DNA of 64,000 bases, from the NCBI GenBank assembly GCA_020161395.1, contig JAIUOE010000004.1, positions 248,001 through 312,000 of the forward strand. The letters are read 5' to 3'. A program made the position numbers and the translations under genes. Below are positions 12,626-21,681 of the stretch, one piece after another; position 1 is the stretch's first letter; the number at the start of each line of letters is the position of its first letter. The notes beneath the pieces were generated by a model, which searched no databases, was not told the DNA's origin, and worked only from the letters and a program-made list of their open reading frames with translations. This DNA is from Bacteroidota bacterium. Lineage in GTDB: Bacteria > Bacteroidota > Ignavibacteria > Ignavibacteriales > Ignavibacteriaceae.

Positions 12626-12682
12626 TTGCTTTCCCGTTGTTTTCCACCCGGTTTACAGGTCGTTTCCAGTTGACTGAAATAC
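12619..12682. repeat. Duplicated leader element, copy 2
   Basis: This is the partner of 12299-12360. It contains the same 18-mer at 12663-12680 with the CAGT-TG-ACTG palindrome and ends at a GTG start. Here the 18-mer is part of the genuine coding end of the Cro-like gene, so this copy is the likely source of the duplication. Confidence 0.8.
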
Positions 12683-12889
12683 TTCTTTTTGTTTAGGTTG
12701 CTTTTGACTTATATAGGAAGTGCAGTCGCCGAATAGCGATTCTAATTTTCGCAAAGTTTTCATATTGATTCTACCTCGATGTTTTATCGAGGAAATTAAC
12801 TGTGGCGTGACTCCCATTTTCTCGGCAAGTTCCGTCGCTGTGATTCTTTTTTCTAAAAGAAATGTTGTGAGGTCAAAGATGATTATCAT
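12653..12889 (-). CDS. Cro-like helix-turn-helix regulator
   Basis: The 78-residue protein has a classical XRE/Cro HTH: ITATELAEKMGVTPQLISSI (residues about 16-35), then INMKTLRKLESLFG. It is the first gene of the minus-strand early operon and is divergent from the S24 repressor, the normal place for a Cro or early-lytic regulator. No Shine-Dalgarno precedes the ATG, so it may have a short leader. It probably binds the operators in the 12,890-13,040 gap. Confidence 0.75.
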   Translation of the reverse strand: MIIIFDLTTFLLEKRITATELAEKMGVTPQLISSIKHRGRINMKTLRKLESLFGDCTSYISQKQPKQKEVFQSTGNDL

Positions 12890-12912: not shown

Positions 12913-12949
12913 TAACTAACACAAATATACAACACTAATTAACACAAGT
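12913..12949. promoter_or_regulatory. Candidate phage operators in the cro/cI divergent gap
   Basis: TAACTAACACAAAT at 12913-12926 and TAATTAACACAAGT at 12936-12949 share 12 of 14 bases and are 23 bp apart, about two helical turns. TGTTTATTAACTAACA, overlapping the first copy, is an imperfect palindrome. They lie in the 151-bp AT-rich gap between the Cro-like gene and the S24 repressor, where both regulators should bind. Assignment is by position and repetition only. Confidence 0.45.
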
Positions 12950-13040
12950 CAATAGTTTGTTAAAATATTTTTTCATATTTAAACATCTATTCAACAAAAT
13001 TAGACAACAGTATTACAATTTTTGTTTATTTATTTGATTT

Positions 13041-13706
13041 ATGAATTGGAAAGATTTTATTGTAGAGTTAGAAAATGGTCTCTTTGGCGAGAGATTCAGC
13101 GATGCCGAATTAGCAAATAAGATTGGTGTCGATAGAGTTACGATCTGGCAAATACGTAATGGGAAGAAGCAATATATCCAACAAAATACTAAAGGCAAAT
13201 TTGAAAAAGCATTTAGTATTCGGATCAACGATGATGATTTTGAAAATCTTCAGATCATACAACGAACCGATTTGCCTTCTAACCATGAACTAACTTCGAC
13301 CAAAAGTCGTATTGAGGTAAGAGGTAACTACCTTCTGGGAGCTGTCTCTGCCGGTCGAGCTCAACTGCTGGATTATGAAGATAAGGCAATAGAGGATATT
13401 GATTACCCAATTGACACTTGCTTCTGGTACAGTATTGATAAGCAAAATGGTGATAGCATGTATCCCCTTCTTTGTGAGAATGACAAGGTGCTAATTGACA
13501 GAAATCTATCAAAACGATCAATTAAAGAAATGGACATAGTGGTTGTTTTTTGGGGAAATAGTTATGCAGCAGTCAAACTATTTGGACGATCTGAAACTGA
13601 TGCAAATATCTTGGTTTTTCATTCTGCAAATATTATGGTCCCTCCAATTATTCTTCATAAAGACAAATGTGAGTATTTTAAGGTAGTACTAATTAAAAAA
13701 GTTTGA
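13041..13706 (+). CDS. CI/LexA-like phage repressor with S24 peptidase domain
   Basis: The 221-residue protein has an N-terminal HTH (FSDAELANKIGVDRVTIWQI, residues 19-38) and a C-terminal S24 self-cleavage domain. Ser139 lies in GDSMYP and Lys179 in YAAVKLF, the catalytic dyad. A likely Ala-Gly cleavage site is at 104-105 (VSAGRA). Such repressors hold the prophage silent and cleave themselves when RecA filaments form after DNA damage. It is divergent from the Cro-like gene and heads the plus-strand block. Its C-terminal domain is clearly related to the inactive stand-alone copy at 16014. Confidence 0.9.
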   Translation: MNWKDFIVELENGLFGERFSDAELANKIGVDRVTIWQIRNGKKQYIQQNTKGKFEKAFSIRINDDDFENLQIIQRTDLPSNHELTSTKSRIEVRGNYLLGAVSAGRAQLLDYEDKAIEDIDYPIDTCFWYSIDKQNGDSMYPLLCENDKVLIDRNLSKRSIKEMDIVVVFWGNSYAAVKLFGRSETDANILVFHSANIMVPPIILHKDKCEYFKVVLIKKV

Positions 13707-14731: not shown

Positions 14732-15130
14732 GTGGAACTAAATAATTTTAAATTACTTACAGACGGAATTGGACTAATCTATCTTCCGGATAATTCAAGT
14801 TTAGTACATGATTATGAGAAACATGTTACCAATAATATGGCTGAGGGAAGTGAGATGCGCATACTTTTTGAGAAATTTCAAGATGAAGGATGGATACATT
14901 CCTATAAAAAGTTCAATGACGAAAAGGAAGGATTTTTTTCATTTAAAACTAAAAATATTAGAGTGTATGGTCTTCTAATCAAAGGTACAAACAAAAATTA
15001 TTTTATCATTTCAGAAGTTTTTATAAAACAGAATAAGCCAAAAGAACACAACAACGCTATAAAAAATTCAAAAAAAAGATTACAAAACTATGAATATAAT
15101 ATCCAACGAATCTATGACAATAAAGGATAA
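14732..15130 (+). CDS. HigB/Gp49-like putative toxin
   Basis: The 132-residue protein begins at a GTG. Its core (IRVYGLLIKGTNKNYFIISE, then FIKQNKPKEHNNAIKNSKKR) resembles the RelE-fold HigB/Gp49 family, where a strand pair is followed by a Lys-rich F-x-K-K/Q-T-P-x-x-E-I-x-x-A-like helix. Such toxins cut mRNA on the ribosome. The gene is followed by an HTH gene in the toxin-before-antitoxin order typical of HigBA, with a 41-nt overlap. The N-terminal half is less typical, so the call is moderate. Confidence 0.55.
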   Translation: MELNNFKLLTDGIGLIYLPDNSSLVHDYEKHVTNNMAEGSEMRILFEKFQDEGWIHSYKKFNDEKEGFFSFKTKNIRVYGLLIKGTNKNYFIISEVFIKQNKPKEHNNAIKNSKKRLQNYEYNIQRIYDNKG

Positions 15131-15434
15131 AACCTTTCGATTGACATTTAGGATTTTTGAAGTTATTCTTAAGTTGCTAAAACAAAGAGGAATCCAAAAT
15201 TACAATTCTTATTTGTCAGAGAAAATGGGCACCCCTCGACCAAATATTTCAAGAATGTTAAATTGTGACGGTAATATCACTATTAAGACACTACTTAAAG
15301 CGCTTGATGCTGCTGATCTTGAGATGGAAGTTAAGTTCTATACTAAAGATACTTTGAAACCAATCGATCACATTTCAGTGGCAACAGTAAGATTACCTGA
15401 AATTTCAAAGGTTGAACACGAAAAAAAAATGTAA
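15090..15434 (+). CDS. HigA-like XRE-family putative antitoxin
   Basis: The 114-residue protein has an HTH (YLSEKMGTPRPNISRMLN, then GNITIKTLLKALDAADLEME) and a short C-terminal tail that could mask a toxin. It overlaps the putative toxin by 41 nt. An internal ATG at 15114 is an alternative start; neither has a clear ribosome site. Its HTH region is clearly similar to that of the gene at 18535 (shared spacing of YL-x(5)-G-T, IS, N-x(4)-GN-T-KT), so the element carries two related regulators. Confidence 0.65.
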   Translation: MNIISNESMTIKDKTFRLTFRIFEVILKLLKQRGIQNYNSYLSEKMGTPRPNISRMLNCDGNITIKTLLKALDAADLEMEVKFYTKDTLKPIDHISVATVRLPEISKVEHEKKM

Positions 15435-15455
15435 CAACCCGTTCAATATATGTAT

Positions 15456-15587
15456 ATGACTAATATTCTTACGAACGATCTTGATTCAACTTTGTTTAGA
15501 ACAACTGGCAATACTGTGGATTTTCAGTTATGTGAAATTAAAAATTCCATGATATATAGAAATCAGAAAATTGGAGGTGTCTCGTAG
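15456..15587 (+). CDS. Possible small ORF coupled to the SecB-like gene
   Basis: An ATG at 15456 (or in-frame at 15450) opens a 43-codon frame that ends in TAG exactly overlapping the GTG of the next gene (TAGTG). The product is polar, with LDSTLFRTTGNTVDF in its middle. The GGAGGTG ribosome site of the next gene lies inside it. The stop-start overlap is what a coupled leader peptide would show, but there is no ribosome site for this frame and it may be chance. Confidence 0.3.
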   Translation: MTNILTNDLDSTLFRTTGNTVDFQLCEIKNSMIYRNQKIGGVS

Positions 15588-16030
15588 TGAATCTTGAGTA
15601 TACACTAAAAATGATGAATTTGATGAAAAACAACATTGATATGTTTGTGTTTAATGAGGCATTTCTCAATAAATGGAAGGATTTGCAAATATCTGTTTTA
15701 AATGTTGTCAGATTTACTCGCACTCACAAGATGCTAAGTATCTTAACTACTCTTGAGTTATTCTTCAACGAGGAGCCGAATAAGTCCCGATTTCTTGAAA
15801 TAAGTATTTCAGCCGATTTTGAATTAGAGAATTTCGAATATTTAGAAACTGATGGACGAATCGAATTCCCTCATGATTTTATTTCCATGCTGTTAGGTAT
15901 AATGTACTCTACAATTAGAGGGGTAGTCTTAGACAAACCCATATTATCAGGTCTTGTATTATTACCATTAATGGATACGGATAAACTGCATAGAGAAGTA
16001 ATAATCACACAAGATGAGCCAGAACGATAA
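15587..16030 (+). CDS. Possible SecB-like chaperone of a toxin-antitoxin-chaperone set
   Basis: The 147-residue protein starts at GTG with a near-perfect GGAGGTG eight bases upstream. Its length is that of SecB. The middle alternates strands (FLEISISADFELENFEYL), and the C-terminal part has an acidic helix, then MLLGIMYSTIRGVVLDKP and VLLPLMDTDKL. I associate this S-T-x-RG plus LP ending with SecB-like proteins of Bacteroidetes. Following a HigBA-like pair it could be a tripartite TAC chaperone. The similarity is weak by eye. It overlaps the next gene by 17 nt. Confidence 0.4.
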   Translation: MNLEYTLKMMNLMKNNIDMFVFNEAFLNKWKDLQISVLNVVRFTRTHKMLSILTTLELFFNEEPNKSRFLEISISADFELENFEYLETDGRIEFPHDFISMLLGIMYSTIRGVVLDKPILSGLVLLPLMDTDKLHREVIITQDEPER

Positions 16031-16364
16031 AGATCAAAAGAGTCTGATTGATACAATCAATAGTCTTGAATACGATCCAGACCTGTATTTCTACCTAAAA
16101 CTAAATCCGTCACATACCTGGGGAATCGAACCTTTCTTTAAGCCCGGGGAATATGTTTTACTCTCGATCCTTCCGAGTGAGAATATCGTGAAGGAAAATG
16201 ATCTCTGTATAGTCAGTTACAACGAAATAGATGTGATCAGGATTTGCTCTCGTTCGGACAATCCAGACTATTATATCTTTACTGCCGGGAACATGAAGAT
16301 ACCTCCCCTCGCACTGAAGAAATCAGAGTGTAAAGTTTATAAGATAATCAAACATGAGAAGTGA
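16014..16364 (+). CDS. Stand-alone inactive S24 (LexA/CI C-terminal) domain protein
   Basis: The 116-residue protein aligns end to end with the C-terminal domain of the prophage repressor: WGIEPFFKPGEYVLL against GDSMYPLLCENDKVLI, VIRICSRSD against AVKLFGRSE, and GNMKIPPLALKKSECKVYK against ANIMVPPIILHKDKCEYFK. The catalytic Ser is replaced by Gly37 and the Lys by Arg76, and there is no HTH. It therefore cannot self-cleave but could pair with the repressor dimer interface or act as a ligand sensor. It lies between the SecB-like gene (17-nt overlap) and the ATPase gene (9 nt), inside one operon. Confidence 0.7.
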   Translation: MSQNDKDQKSLIDTINSLEYDPDLYFYLKLNPSHTWGIEPFFKPGEYVLLSILPSENIVKENDLCIVSYNEIDVIRICSRSDNPDYYIFTAGNMKIPPLALKKSECKVYKIIKHEK

Positions 16365-16373
16365 GGGAAAGTT

Positions 16374-17483
16374 TTGAAGAAATTATTTACAACAACTGAA
16401 TATAAAAAGCGGAACCAACGACATGCAGACTTATCTTTTTTTGTTAGAAATAAACGAAAGAAGAAATACTATAGCGCGCCGATTCTTCCTGTAAATAAAA
16501 TACACGATTATGAAGAGAGTTTAAAAAAGGATTTCCCCGGTTATGAGATTGTAATCCCTCCCGAAGAATTCTCGTTTATTGACAATACTGAGTCAGTTGT
16601 GATATTTATTAATCAAATCATGGTATGTTACGAGAATCGAAAGAAAGTTTTTGTGAAGCTTCTTAGAGTACAGAAGATCACATACGATGCAATAATTGTG
16701 TTACTATCAATAATGGTAAAGTTCAGAGAAGCCGGAATAGATTTTAATGGAGATAAACCTCTTGGACATTCACCAAGAGAACTTTTGGATAAATCTGGAT
16801 TTTTCAGTGAACTATTTACGAGGAAATTTGTAAAAAGTGAGATATATGAGTTTACCCACTCGGATAATTTAATTTGTACTCATGGTGATAAAAATGTGGC
16901 ATCAGATTTATCCACACAATTAACAAAAACAGCTTCAAATTATTTGACTGACTACAAAGTGTCTAAAGCACAAGGAGTACAGCGATTAATGATTGAATTG
17001 ATGCAGAATACGAATAATCATGCATCTGAAACACCAGGAGAAAAGCACTGGTGGTTATCTATGAGTAGAAATGATAAAAATAAGACTATTTATTTCTCGT
17101 TCGTAGATTTTGGGGTGGGCATTTTAAGTAGTTTGGAAAAGAAGCCAGATGATAATTCTTTTAAAAGTTACTATAAAAAATTGGTTAATTTGTTTGGAAT
17201 TGAAAATCAACACAAACATCTCAAAGAAATTTTTTCCGGAGCCCTTTACGCTGAAACAGTAACAGGAGAGCATTTTAGAGGGAAAGGACTGCCGGGAATT
17301 GGTGCAGTTGTAAAGAGAGGTCAAATTAGTAATCTTCACATTATAACAAACAGAGTCAAAGGAAGTGTAAAAGATAATGTATATGAAAAATTGTCTTGTA
17401 ATTTCTCAGGAACATTTTATCATTGGGAATTAAAAACGGAGTGTTTAAGCAAGTATGGAAAAGATAGTATTCAGAATAGCTAA
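16374..17483 (+). CDS. GHKL (histidine kinase-like) ATPase, STAS-partnered
   Basis: The 369-residue protein starts at TTG with GTGAGGG upstream. The C-terminal half is a GHKL ATP-binding domain: N-box MIELMQNTNNHA (206-217), G1 box DFGVGI (245-250) and G2 box RGKGLPGIG (302-310). There is no dimerisation/phospho-acceptor helix of a normal sensor kinase, so it is more like an anti-sigma-kinase or MORC/Hsp90-type ATPase. Residues about 55-130 (VVIFINQIMVCYENRKKVFV, then a helix) look STAS-like. It overlaps the DUF4325 gene by 29 nt, a strong sign the two act together. Role unknown; regulation or anti-phage defence is possible. Confidence 0.75.
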   Translation: MKKLFTTTEYKKRNQRHADLSFFVRNKRKKKYYSAPILPVNKIHDYEESLKKDFPGYEIVIPPEEFSFIDNTESVVIFINQIMVCYENRKKVFVKLLRVQKITYDAIIVLLSIMVKFREAGIDFNGDKPLGHSPRELLDKSGFFSELFTRKFVKSEIYEFTHSDNLICTHGDKNVASDLSTQLTKTASNYLTDYKVSKAQGVQRLMIELMQNTNNHASETPGEKHWWLSMSRNDKNKTIYFSFVDFGVGILSSLEKKPDDNSFKSYYKKLVNLFGIENQHKHLKEIFSGALYAETVTGEHFRGKGLPGIGAVVKRGQISNLHIITNRVKGSVKDNVYEKLSCNFSGTFYHWELKTECLSKYGKDSIQNS

Positions 17484-17808
17484 AGAGTTTAGTGAGAGTC
17501 CCGGACCAAGATACATCAGGGAGGGGATCAATTCAGGTGAATTATTTCGTACCACCATTTTTTCACCTTTGGTTAAAAAATGTATCGAAGATGGTGTTAA
17601 AATTTTAGTCGACCTCGACGGAACATATGGATATGGTACATCGTTCTTGGAAGAGACTTTTGGTGGACTTATCAGAAATGACAAATTTAGGTTGGATGAG
17701 CTCAATAGTCTTTTTGAGTTTAAGTCGGAAGAGGAGCCTTATCTGATTGATGAAATTAAACAGTATATGGAGGATGAATGGCAAAAACAAAAAGGGCAAA
17801 AAAATTAA
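17455..17808 (+). CDS. STAS-like DUF4325 protein
   Basis: The 117-residue protein matches the DUF4325 pattern: GPRYIREG, NSGELFRTTIFSPLV (about 26-40), ILVDLDGTYGYGTSFLEETF (about 50-69) and GGLIR. STAS folds often bind and regulate GHKL ATPases, as with SpoIIAA and the SpoIIAB kinase, and DUF4325 genes often accompany GHKL genes. Here it overlaps the ATPase by 29 nt and the membrane gene by 31 nt. A phosphorylatable Ser or Thr could lie in GTSF, but that is a guess. Confidence 0.8.
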   Translation: MEKIVFRIAKEFSESPGPRYIREGINSGELFRTTIFSPLVKKCIEDGVKILVDLDGTYGYGTSFLEETFGGLIRNDKFRLDELNSLFEFKSEEEPYLIDEIKQYMEDEWQKQKGQKN

Positions 17809-18392
17809 ATTTTCCTTATCTCTTTTTTTGGGTTTCTATAGCAATTCTTGCAAGTCAATTGATAGGATTGATTTATACGAAATCTCAATTCCAAATAGAA
17901 AATAAAATTGATCTACTTGATATTTTGTCTCTGACGATCACATTAATTTTAGCGATCGTCATCTCAATGGTGTTTGACAAGAACAAATCAGATCACAGAG
18001 TTCTGAAAGATATTTTTATCAATAGAATTAGTAATATCGAAAAATTACTTTTTGAGTTCGATCGTTTGGTAAACTTACCAAGAGTTCCAATGACAGATGT
18101 TACTTATCAATCAAAAAAAATCAGTATGAGTTTCTCATTACTTGTCAAGAATTTAAGAAGTTCAACTGTTTACAATGGTAATGTTTCAAATGATGTCAAC
18201 CCGGATAAAATCAAAGAAGAGCTGAGAGATTTTATTAAAGAATTTACTGAGGATTCCAATTACGAAATTATTATTGAAGAAACTGAAAGTTTTTATGTAT
18301 ACCATAAAGCCTTTTTAAAGCGACAAAGTACGGGGTTTACTAAACAATATAACCAACTGCTTAAACTCCAGATATTAATTAATAATGCATGA
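17778..18392 (+). CDS. Two-TM membrane protein, third gene of the ATPase operon
   Basis: The 204-residue protein has a basic start (KTKRAKK), two membrane segments (about residues 13-33 and 46-65, ILSLTITLILAIVISMVF) and a 135-residue cytoplasmic helical part. The inside-positive rule puts both ends in the cytoplasm. It overlaps DUF4325 by 31 nt. A membrane protein behind an ATPase and a regulatory protein suggests a sensor or an effector such as a depolarising component, but there is no motif for either. Confidence 0.65.
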   Translation: MAKTKRAKKLNFPYLFFWVSIAILASQLIGLIYTKSQFQIENKIDLLDILSLTITLILAIVISMVFDKNKSDHRVLKDIFINRISNIEKLLFEFDRLVNLPRVPMTDVTYQSKKISMSFSLLVKNLRSSTVYNGNVSNDVNPDKIKEELRDFIKEFTEDSNYEIIIEETESFYVYHKAFLKRQSTGFTKQYNQLLKLQILINNA

Positions 18393-18534: not shown

Positions 18535-18870
18535 ATGACTTTGAAGAAATCAGATGAAATTGAAATTAAGTCTTTCAATTTGGTATTTTCCTTCCTTGAA
18601 TCAATTTTGGCGAGGTTCAAAAGCAAAAACATTCAGAAACCGACGACTTATCTTGCCGGTGAATTGGGAACATATAGAGCTTATATCTCTAAAACATTTA
18701 ATAGTGAGGGAAATTTGACCGTTAAAACTATGATCTCATTAGCCAACGCAGCTGGTCTTGAGATAGAAATACTACTGAAGGACAAAAAAACATCAGAAGT
18801 TTTCAACTATATGGAAATTGCCACTTTTGACACCGATGATCAGAGCAGAGCGGCGTTAAAGAGGATATAG
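18535..18870 (+). CDS. XRE-family HTH regulator, paralogue of the gene at 15090
   Basis: The 111-residue protein has an HTH (YLAGELGTYRAYISKTFN, then GNLTVKTMISLANAAGLEIE) and a short C-terminal tail. It is similar throughout to the HigA-like protein at 15090. It heads a four-gene module (18535-20587) and has its own likely promoter. It may be an antitoxin or autoregulator for the downstream genes. Confidence 0.7.
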   Translation: MTLKKSDEIEIKSFNLVFSFLESILARFKSKNIQKPTTYLAGELGTYRAYISKTFNSEGNLTVKTMISLANAAGLEIEILLKDKKTSEVFNYMEIATFDTDDQSRAALKRI

Positions 18871-19656: not shown

Positions 19657-20238
19657 ATGAGCACAGCAATTGCATTAGATATAGAACTCAGTAAGCATAT
19701 ACTTTACACACCCGCTGCCAGTCCACAGGTGAGTAATGATACAAGTTTCATTTCTGGAAGTCTTTACGAAGAGATTGTTAAAGTCAGTTCCCGAAATTCA
19801 GCAATGTCCTATAATGAAGTTATTGGATCACAGTATTTAATTGGATATTTCGATAAAGTGGATTTCATCAACAGTGTAGAGAGTCTAAGAAAATATGATA
19901 ACATAAAAAAGTTGATTGAATTTGGTGCACTCGAACACGACTGGGATAATGAAGGTGGAAAAAAAATTCCTAAAACCACTATTCGAACCGTTTACAATAT
20001 TGTAAAAAGTGATAAATTGATCAAACAACCTTTTATTGCACCATTACCAACCGGTGGAATTCTTTTGACTTTGAGAATATCAAAAACTCAACACATGAAT
20101 ATATTCCTCCGGGATGAATCCACATACAATGTGGTAGAAATTGTTAAACGTGATGGAAACATAGAATCAAAAGAATACAAGATTAATCACAATACTCTGC
20201 TCCAACAAATCAATATGTATTATGCGAATAACCGATAA
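19657..20238 (+). CDS. Unknown protein with a WDNEGG-type motif
   Basis: The 193-residue protein has a disordered N-terminus (about 75 residues) and then a recognisable core: LIEFGALEHDWDNEGGKKIP (about residues 87-106), a helix, and FIAPLPTGGILLTLRI. I have seen this W-D-x-x-G/A plus P-x-P-x-G-G arrangement in uncharacterised genes on mobile elements. It overlaps the next gene by 17 nt. Function unknown. Confidence 0.55.
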   Translation: MSTAIALDIELSKHILYTPAASPQVSNDTSFISGSLYEEIVKVSSRNSAMSYNEVIGSQYLIGYFDKVDFINSVESLRKYDNIKKLIEFGALEHDWDNEGGKKIPKTTIRTVYNIVKSDKLIKQPFIAPLPTGGILLTLRISKTQHMNIFLRDESTYNVVEIVKRDGNIESKEYKINHNTLLQQINMYYANNR

Positions 20239-20649: not shown

Positions 20650-21681
20650 GTGGGAAAAAGTAAATACCCTAAAGGGGTATATTCGAAAGCTGGCTATCTT
20701 TATGTGAGTGTCTGGAATCCATTGACTCAAACTTCGGCACAAAAAGCAACAAAATTAAAGGATGTTCAGAAAAACTACAAAGCCGCCCGGGAGTTTAAAG
20801 AAGAGCTTCAGCAAACATTGAATAAAAAATGTTTCCTTGACACCCTCTGTTCTGACAATTCAAAACCGGTCAATTTTTCTAGTGCTGTTGAAGACTATAT
20901 TTCAGCAAGAGATCTTTCAGCAAGCTCTATTACATCGATTAAATTCTGGAGTAAAGTTTGGCAGGAAGTCTCTGGGGATAAAATTATTTCTGATTTTACT
21001 GATCGAGATTACCATGCCTTTCTAGTTTATCTCAAGAAGAAAGATTATAGTATCTATACCAAAGGGATGGCAACTCGAACTCTGTATGCGATATTCAACT
21101 ATTTCGTCAAACAGGAGCAGATAAAAAAGAATGTGATAGTAAAGATCAAACCTCCGGCGAAAGCGCCTCAAGCCATCCCCCAGCTCGATCTGGTAGACTT
21201 TCTTTACTTATTGGAGCAAATTGATATTGATTATTACTACATCGTCAACTTTATGTACTTAACCGGTTTTAGAATCGGGGAAACCATCCGACTTGAATGG
21301 AAAGATGTTGACCTCAAAAAAATGGTGATCAGGGTTAGGAATGAAAAGGGAAAACGATTTGAAGAATTCCCTATTCATAATGATTTGTTCGATCTTCTGG
21401 GTGAGATACCAAATAAAGATTTAAGGATCTTTCCAAAATTCTCAAGAATTGATAGTCTCAAAAACTATTACAAGTACCAAAGGGATCTATGGGGAGAAAA
21501 ACGGTATACCATACACCAGCTGCGCAAGACCTTCATTACTAAGTTAACTCGCTTTGATTTGGGGGTCTATAAAGTTCAAGCGTTGGCCAGACATAAGGAT
21601 ATCAGAACAACTCAAGCTTATTACATCGATGTTGAAATGGAAAAATTGAGAGAAGATATCAATGATAGAATTAAATTTTAA
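20650..21681 (+). CDS. int: Tyrosine recombinase (phage integrase)
   Basis: The 343-residue protein begins at GTG with AAAAGGA upstream. It has an N-terminal arm-binding-like region (about 1-60), a SAM-like core-binding domain (about 75-165) and a catalytic domain. The catalytic domain shows TGFRIGETIRLEW (Arg of box I), HQLRKTFITKL (His-x-x-Arg), LARHKDIRTTQAYY (His near the end) and the nucleophile in TQAYY at the C-terminus. It lies next to the tRNA-Arg fragment, as expected for an integrase that targets a tRNA gene. It is phage/Bacteroidetes type in length. Confidence 0.92.
   Translation: MGKSKYPKGVYSKAGYLYVSVWNPLTQTSAQKATKLKDVQKNYKAAREFKEELQQTLNKKCFLDTLCSDNSKPVNFSSAVEDYISARDLSASSITSIKFWSKVWQEVSGDKIISDFTDRDYHAFLVYLKKKDYSIYTKGMATRTLYAIFNYFVKQEQIKKNVIVKIKPPAKAPQAIPQLDLVDFLYLLEQIDIDYYYIVNFMYLTGFRIGETIRLEWKDVDLKKMVIRVRNEKGKRFEEFPIHNDLFDLLGEIPNKDLRIFPKFSRIDSLKNYYKYQRDLWGEKRYTIHQLRKTFITKLTRFDLGVYKVQALARHKDIRTTQAYYIDVEMEKLREDINDRIKF

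Follow-up and report, generated by a model that had tools for sequence, protein, structure and literature searches.

The window analyzed here, i.e., the whole stretch of 64,000 nucleotides of DNA, contains a prophage that is composed of leftward early genes (replication initiation, RusA, RecT and exonuclease), a Cro-like gene, a repressor gene whose product is referred to below as the 13041 repressor, an accessory block and an integrase gene (Table 1). The accessory block harbours a small gene, here termed the orphan, which is located between an upstream HTH/SecB-like module and a downstream ATPase-STAS-membrane module. The two repeats found between the divergent Cro-like and repressor genes are likely to be the operators of the 13041 repressor; no such repeats were found upstream of the operon of the orphan or elsewhere in the window outside their own interval.

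Table 1. Features of the prophage and their positions in the window
Feature	Position	Strand	Evidence or remarks
Divergent Cro-like HTH gene, first of leftward early operon	12653..12889	-	phrog_8 transcriptional regulator
Two 20-nt direct repeats, AACACAAATATACAACACTA / AACAAAATTAGACAACAGTA, between divergent genes	12918..13012	+	Candidate repressor operators
CI/LexA-like prophage repressor, HTH + S24, 221 aa, dyad and A-G site intact	13041..13706	+	Peptidase_S24 6e-9; phrog_4 transcriptional repressor 1e-10; alignment
132-aa protein, gene 1 of upstream three-gene module	14732..15130	+	Order as in L036/L037; sequence relation by eye
HTH protein, antitoxin-like, upstream module	15090..15434	+	HTH_3 0.001; PADLOC PDC-M64C 1.1e-5
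147-aa protein, putative SecB-like chaperone	15587..16030	+	PADLOC PDC-M64C 2e-8; relatives L025/L026
Orphan S24 C-terminal domain	16014..16364	+	ATG, 116 aa; Gly37 for Ser, Arg76 for Lys
GHKL-type ATPase, downstream three-gene module	16374..17483	+	phrog_3364 8e-35; relatives L030-L032, L052
DUF4325 STAS-like protein	17455..17808	+	PF14213 3e-11
Membrane protein, gene 3 of ATPase module	17778..18392	+	Sequence; counterpart in L033
Prophage integrase	20650..21681	+	phrog_1 5e-36

The upstream module (14732-16030) resembles toxin-antitoxin-chaperone systems, and a like-ordered trio adjoins restriction genes in L036 and L037; gene order alone would assign the role of toxin to the product of its first gene. 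The SecB-like label of the third product was given by inspection; a PDB profile search and a structure model of low confidence (pLDDT 46) spoke neither for nor against it. The downstream ATPase-STAS-membrane trio (16374-18392) represents a candidate defence or signalling module, to which PADLOC returned no convincing match. Operons that combine such an ATPase with a DUF4325 STAS-like protein and a membrane protein are scattered over genomes, including a Leptospira plasmid (L033, L034, L035, L052 and L074). Beyond this trio, positions 18535-18870 encode a second small HTH protein with similarity to PDC-M64 HTH models, followed by a 241-aa gene without assignment, while the product of 19657-20238, near the integrase gene, matches PADLOC PDC-M32A (3.5e-7) and is a possible defence gene or fragment.

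The reading frame of the orphan, which starts with ATG on the + strand and encodes 116 aa, lies at exactly the coordinates that had been given for it in an earlier note. The prophage is confirmed to carry an intact small gene for the S24 C-terminal half of a LexA/CI-type repressor. The frame is open for just three codons upstream of the ATG (119 codons in total) and therefore leaves no room for an HTH fused in frame, as the earlier note had also stated, while the homology begins at the cleavage-site position. The first residue of the orphan aligns exactly with the Ala of the Ala-Gly cleavage site of its relatives, and the protein is colinear with the nearest of these from residue 1, gap-free for about 50 residues; it thus corresponds in extent to the C-terminal cleavage fragment. 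The start of the gene overlaps the last 17 bases of the preceding 147-aa gene, including the stop codon of the latter, and its end is separated from the ATPase gene by 10 bp. A frameshifted full-length repressor was excluded, as the upstream frame encodes a PDC-M64C-type protein with relatives of its own. It is also unlikely that the repressor was split and that the 15090 HTH protein is its other half, since this protein is matched by PDC-M64 HTH models and L036/L037 contain a gene in the corresponding position.

The orphan was found to be homologous from end to end with the S24 half of LexA/CI-type repressors, including the 13041 repressor, with which it shares 23% identity and 52% positives over 101 residues (E=5e-10 in a single BLASTP comparison). 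The homology to the element's own repressor, as put forward in the earlier note, therefore stands; as its closest relative, however, that repressor is surpassed by the chromosomal XRE-S24 regulator C7:154236 (34% against 23% identity), which is the best match in the same genome (E=6e-14). XRE-S24 proteins of the genus and family match the orphan at E=4e-16 to 1e-13, and relatives with 34-36% identity occur in all three other genomes of the genus; in the one of these that was compared (L039), the regulator adjoins the same cation-efflux gene as C7:154236. All family relatives are full-length HTH-S24 proteins (frames of 206-283 aa), barring one that is cut by a contig end. When used alone, the orphan sequence matched nothing in Pfam, NCBIfam or PHROG, falling below the Pfam S24 threshold, or in a PDB sequence search, and a direct search found no relatives in viral contigs, phages or plasmids; a profile search reached one viral repressor, which is full-length (L051). 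Matches in L023 and L049 were discarded as antisense-frame coincidences, and that in L050 is weak.

The catalytic Ser and Lys, which are invariant in 21/21 other relatives, align with Gly37 and Arg76 of the orphan, so that the loss of the dyad reported earlier is borne out. Furthermore, an active-site Gly has been lost, and Met-Ser occupies the place of the relatives' Ala-Gly, leaving no cleavage site. The orphan keeps the consensus residue at one of six positions in the nucleophile loop and at none of four in the base strand, as compared to five of six in core strand 42-52, which places the loss around the active site and the linker; the 13041 repressor shows the reverse pattern in the same comparison (nucleophile loop 2.49 vs 0.85).

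The S24 fold expected by the earlier note was found to be present in the predicted structure, an AlphaFold2 model of the orphan (pLDDT 69, pTM 0.60) built with three window or viral sequences. Its top PDB matches are the C-terminal domains of LexA, UmuD' and lambda CI (Z 8.0-9.3, rmsd 3.0-4.9, 87-104 residues), while SipA (Z 7.6) and phage 186 CI (Z 6.7) follow at a lower level. Foldseek concurs, returning S24 C-terminal domains with prob 1.00. The orphan thus resembles LexA, lambda CI and UmuD' in fold and in a sequence that is colinear from the cleavage site, but has Gly and Arg in place of Ser and Lys and no HTH. The orphan is therefore S24 by fold and homology, yet lacks the dyad of an active enzyme, the HTH of a repressor and the Ala-Gly site, and represents an unusual form of a known domain, i.e., a dead, stand-alone C-terminal half. 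Its length, its lack of an HTH and the UmuD' match (Z 9.2, rmsd 3.3, 95 aligned) could also suggest a UmuD'-like accessory of an error-prone polymerase. This is highly improbable, given that no polymerase gene was seen nearby, either among the neighbouring ORFs or in the family scans, that the nearest sequences are XRE-S24 regulators, that the NCBIfam UmuD model gave no match and that the dyad is missing.

The last strand of the orphan is probably the dimer strand (for the dimer mode, see PMC12984324). In this strand, the family sequence YKVVLIEK reads YKIIKHEK in the orphan; YK-I-I is kept in kind, while L113K and I114H are changed and, going by the sequence, may abolish the canonical S24 dimer. 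The change from VVLI to IIKH means that a mixed dimer, such as the earlier note proposed with the repressor, is not assured. In addition, the S24 domain is not always the dimer site in this superfamily, as IrvR dimerizes via its N-terminal domain (PMC7101444).

The main rival to a functional reading of the orphan is that it is the 3' half of a repressor gene, left beside the chaperone gene when the accessory block recombined and now decaying without function. No second intact stand-alone copy, of the kind for which the earlier note proposed a search in related prophages, was found among 80 genomes of the family and 341 of the class or in phages and plasmids (leaving aside a few class-search frames of 143-164 aa, which may be UmuD-like), and conservation as an independent gene is thus unproven. 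The nearest thing to a second copy is a pseudogene in another genome, at the end of a contig, in which the S24 repressor domain has decayed and two stops interrupt the frame (L106, G130:C37, 4903-5223). This pseudogene, the single occurrence of the orphan, its very long branch (1.87 substitutions per site) and the joint loss of the dyad, the Ala-Gly site and the active-site Gly are all consistent with decay. Against decay stand the intact frame, the start within the upstream gene and the short gap to the next gene, as well as the result of a neutral simulation in which the DNA of the C7 domain (the nearest relative) was mutated to the identity level of the orphan in 2000 runs. Zero stops were retained in 1.4% of these runs and the observed mean BLOSUM score was reached in 2/2000, indicating that the frame is more constrained than predicted under neutrality and supporting selection, although part of the divergence built up on a constrained regulator lineage and the simulation therefore overstates selection on the orphan. 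Decay is a plausible explanation, if one with clearly less than an even chance.

The position of the orphan raises the question of its relation to the adjacent modules. One of these defence-like modules, SecB-like/HTH or ATPase-STAS-membrane, may have recruited the domain as a component or sensor, to serve as its bait, client or regulator; this would agree with the overlap of the orphan with the SecB-like gene and its close spacing to the ATPase gene. Moreover, the toxin-antitoxin-chaperone system CmdTAC offers a precedent, as infection is sensed there via the SecB-like chaperone, the signal being the binding of a phage protein to it (PMC11618068). A role as module component nevertheless appears unlikely, as the S24 gene is absent from both relatives of the upstream module (0/2; L036 and L037) and does not occur upstream of any of the homologous ATPase-STAS(-membrane) modules (0/5; the five loci listed above). 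The orphan is therefore a conserved part of neither module. The connection with the ATPase operon suggested in the earlier note is weakened accordingly, with adjacency and tight spacing as its sole tie to the orphan.

A role as a non-cleavable decoy or subunit that acts on full-length S24 repressors or on the RecA filament is put forward tentatively, with somewhat less than an even chance. It draws on the full-length alignment, the fold, the erosion of the catalytic elements with the core kept and the constraint beyond neutrality, while the L113K/I114H changes in the likely dimer strand, the lack of a second intact copy and the N-terminal dimer of IrvR count against it. In the proposed mechanism, the orphan, as part of the accessory block that separates the repressor gene from the integrase gene, would probably be expressed in the lysogen and supply the C-terminal half of an S24 repressor as a protein of its own. 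Since the core with its dimer and RecA contacts is kept, without cutting or DNA binding, a binding role is envisaged, if the protein acts at all. Its partner would be the RecA filament or a full-length S24 protein, which could be the 13041 repressor, the XRE-S24 regulator of the chromosome or the repressor of an incoming phage. A mixed dimer with a repressor would bind the operator more weakly, whereas a decoy would blunt RecA-driven cleavage, and by either route the orphan would tune induction or immunity. The fuller proposition, namely that a protease-dead copy of the cleavage fragment has been selected as a stand-alone protein, that it works in trans on S24 regulators of the host or of phages, either as a decoy or as one subunit of a mixed dimer, and that it is wired into the prophage defence block, is more doubtful.

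Other prophage proteins offer precedents for the modulation of CI-type repressors: Hex of phage 434 blocks RecA-driven cleavage of a CI-type repressor (PMC3564112), and the Gifsy antirepressors bind repressor (PMC3121763). The orphan would be comparable in its proposed effect to these prophage modulators of CI-type repressors, i.e., phage 434 Hex and Gifsy GfoA/GftA. To our knowledge, neither Hex nor GfoA/GftA is an S24 domain, unlike the orphan. A precedent for a dead S24 domain is provided, in a full-length repressor, by phage 186 CI, which has the S24 fold without a working dyad and in which, as in the orphan, Arg occupies the place of the base (PMC12984324, section 2.11); this protein is a DNA-binding repressor, whereas the orphan is the C-terminal domain alone. 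SipA of Streptococcus pyogenes, a member of the wider LexA/signal-peptidase superfamily, is likewise peptidase-dead (PMC12984324, section 2.3.2), but belongs to the signal-peptidase family and serves pilus assembly, an unrelated context.

If the orphan is functional, the prophage encodes the self-cleavage product of a repressor as a separate, non-cleavable protein, and would thereby possess a simple means by which SOS signals, prophage induction and the adjacent defence block could be linked to, or disconnected from, one another. Annotators would also be alerted to the fact that S24 domains which stand alone and score below the Pfam threshold escape notice. As a remnant, the orphan would be of little consequence.

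As regards its origin, the orphan is nearest to the genus-wide chromosomal regulators by identity and score. Constrained trees did not favour an origin of the orphan from the 13041 repressor (delta logL 5.5) and did not reject it (AU p=0.25), so that the test rejects neither this repressor nor a chromosomal regulator as its source. The closer sequence of the chromosomal XRE-S24 regulator also renders the 13041 repressor uncertain as the partner of the orphan. C7:154236, which together with its genus counterparts shares 34-36% identity with the orphan over the domain, is a full-length protein with the HTH, the A-G site and the intact dyad, all of which the orphan lacks. Its gene (L002:1186-1821, G000), which has close relatives in other genomes of the genus, overlaps a cation-diffusion-facilitator gene, and its product is possibly a metal-efflux regulator.
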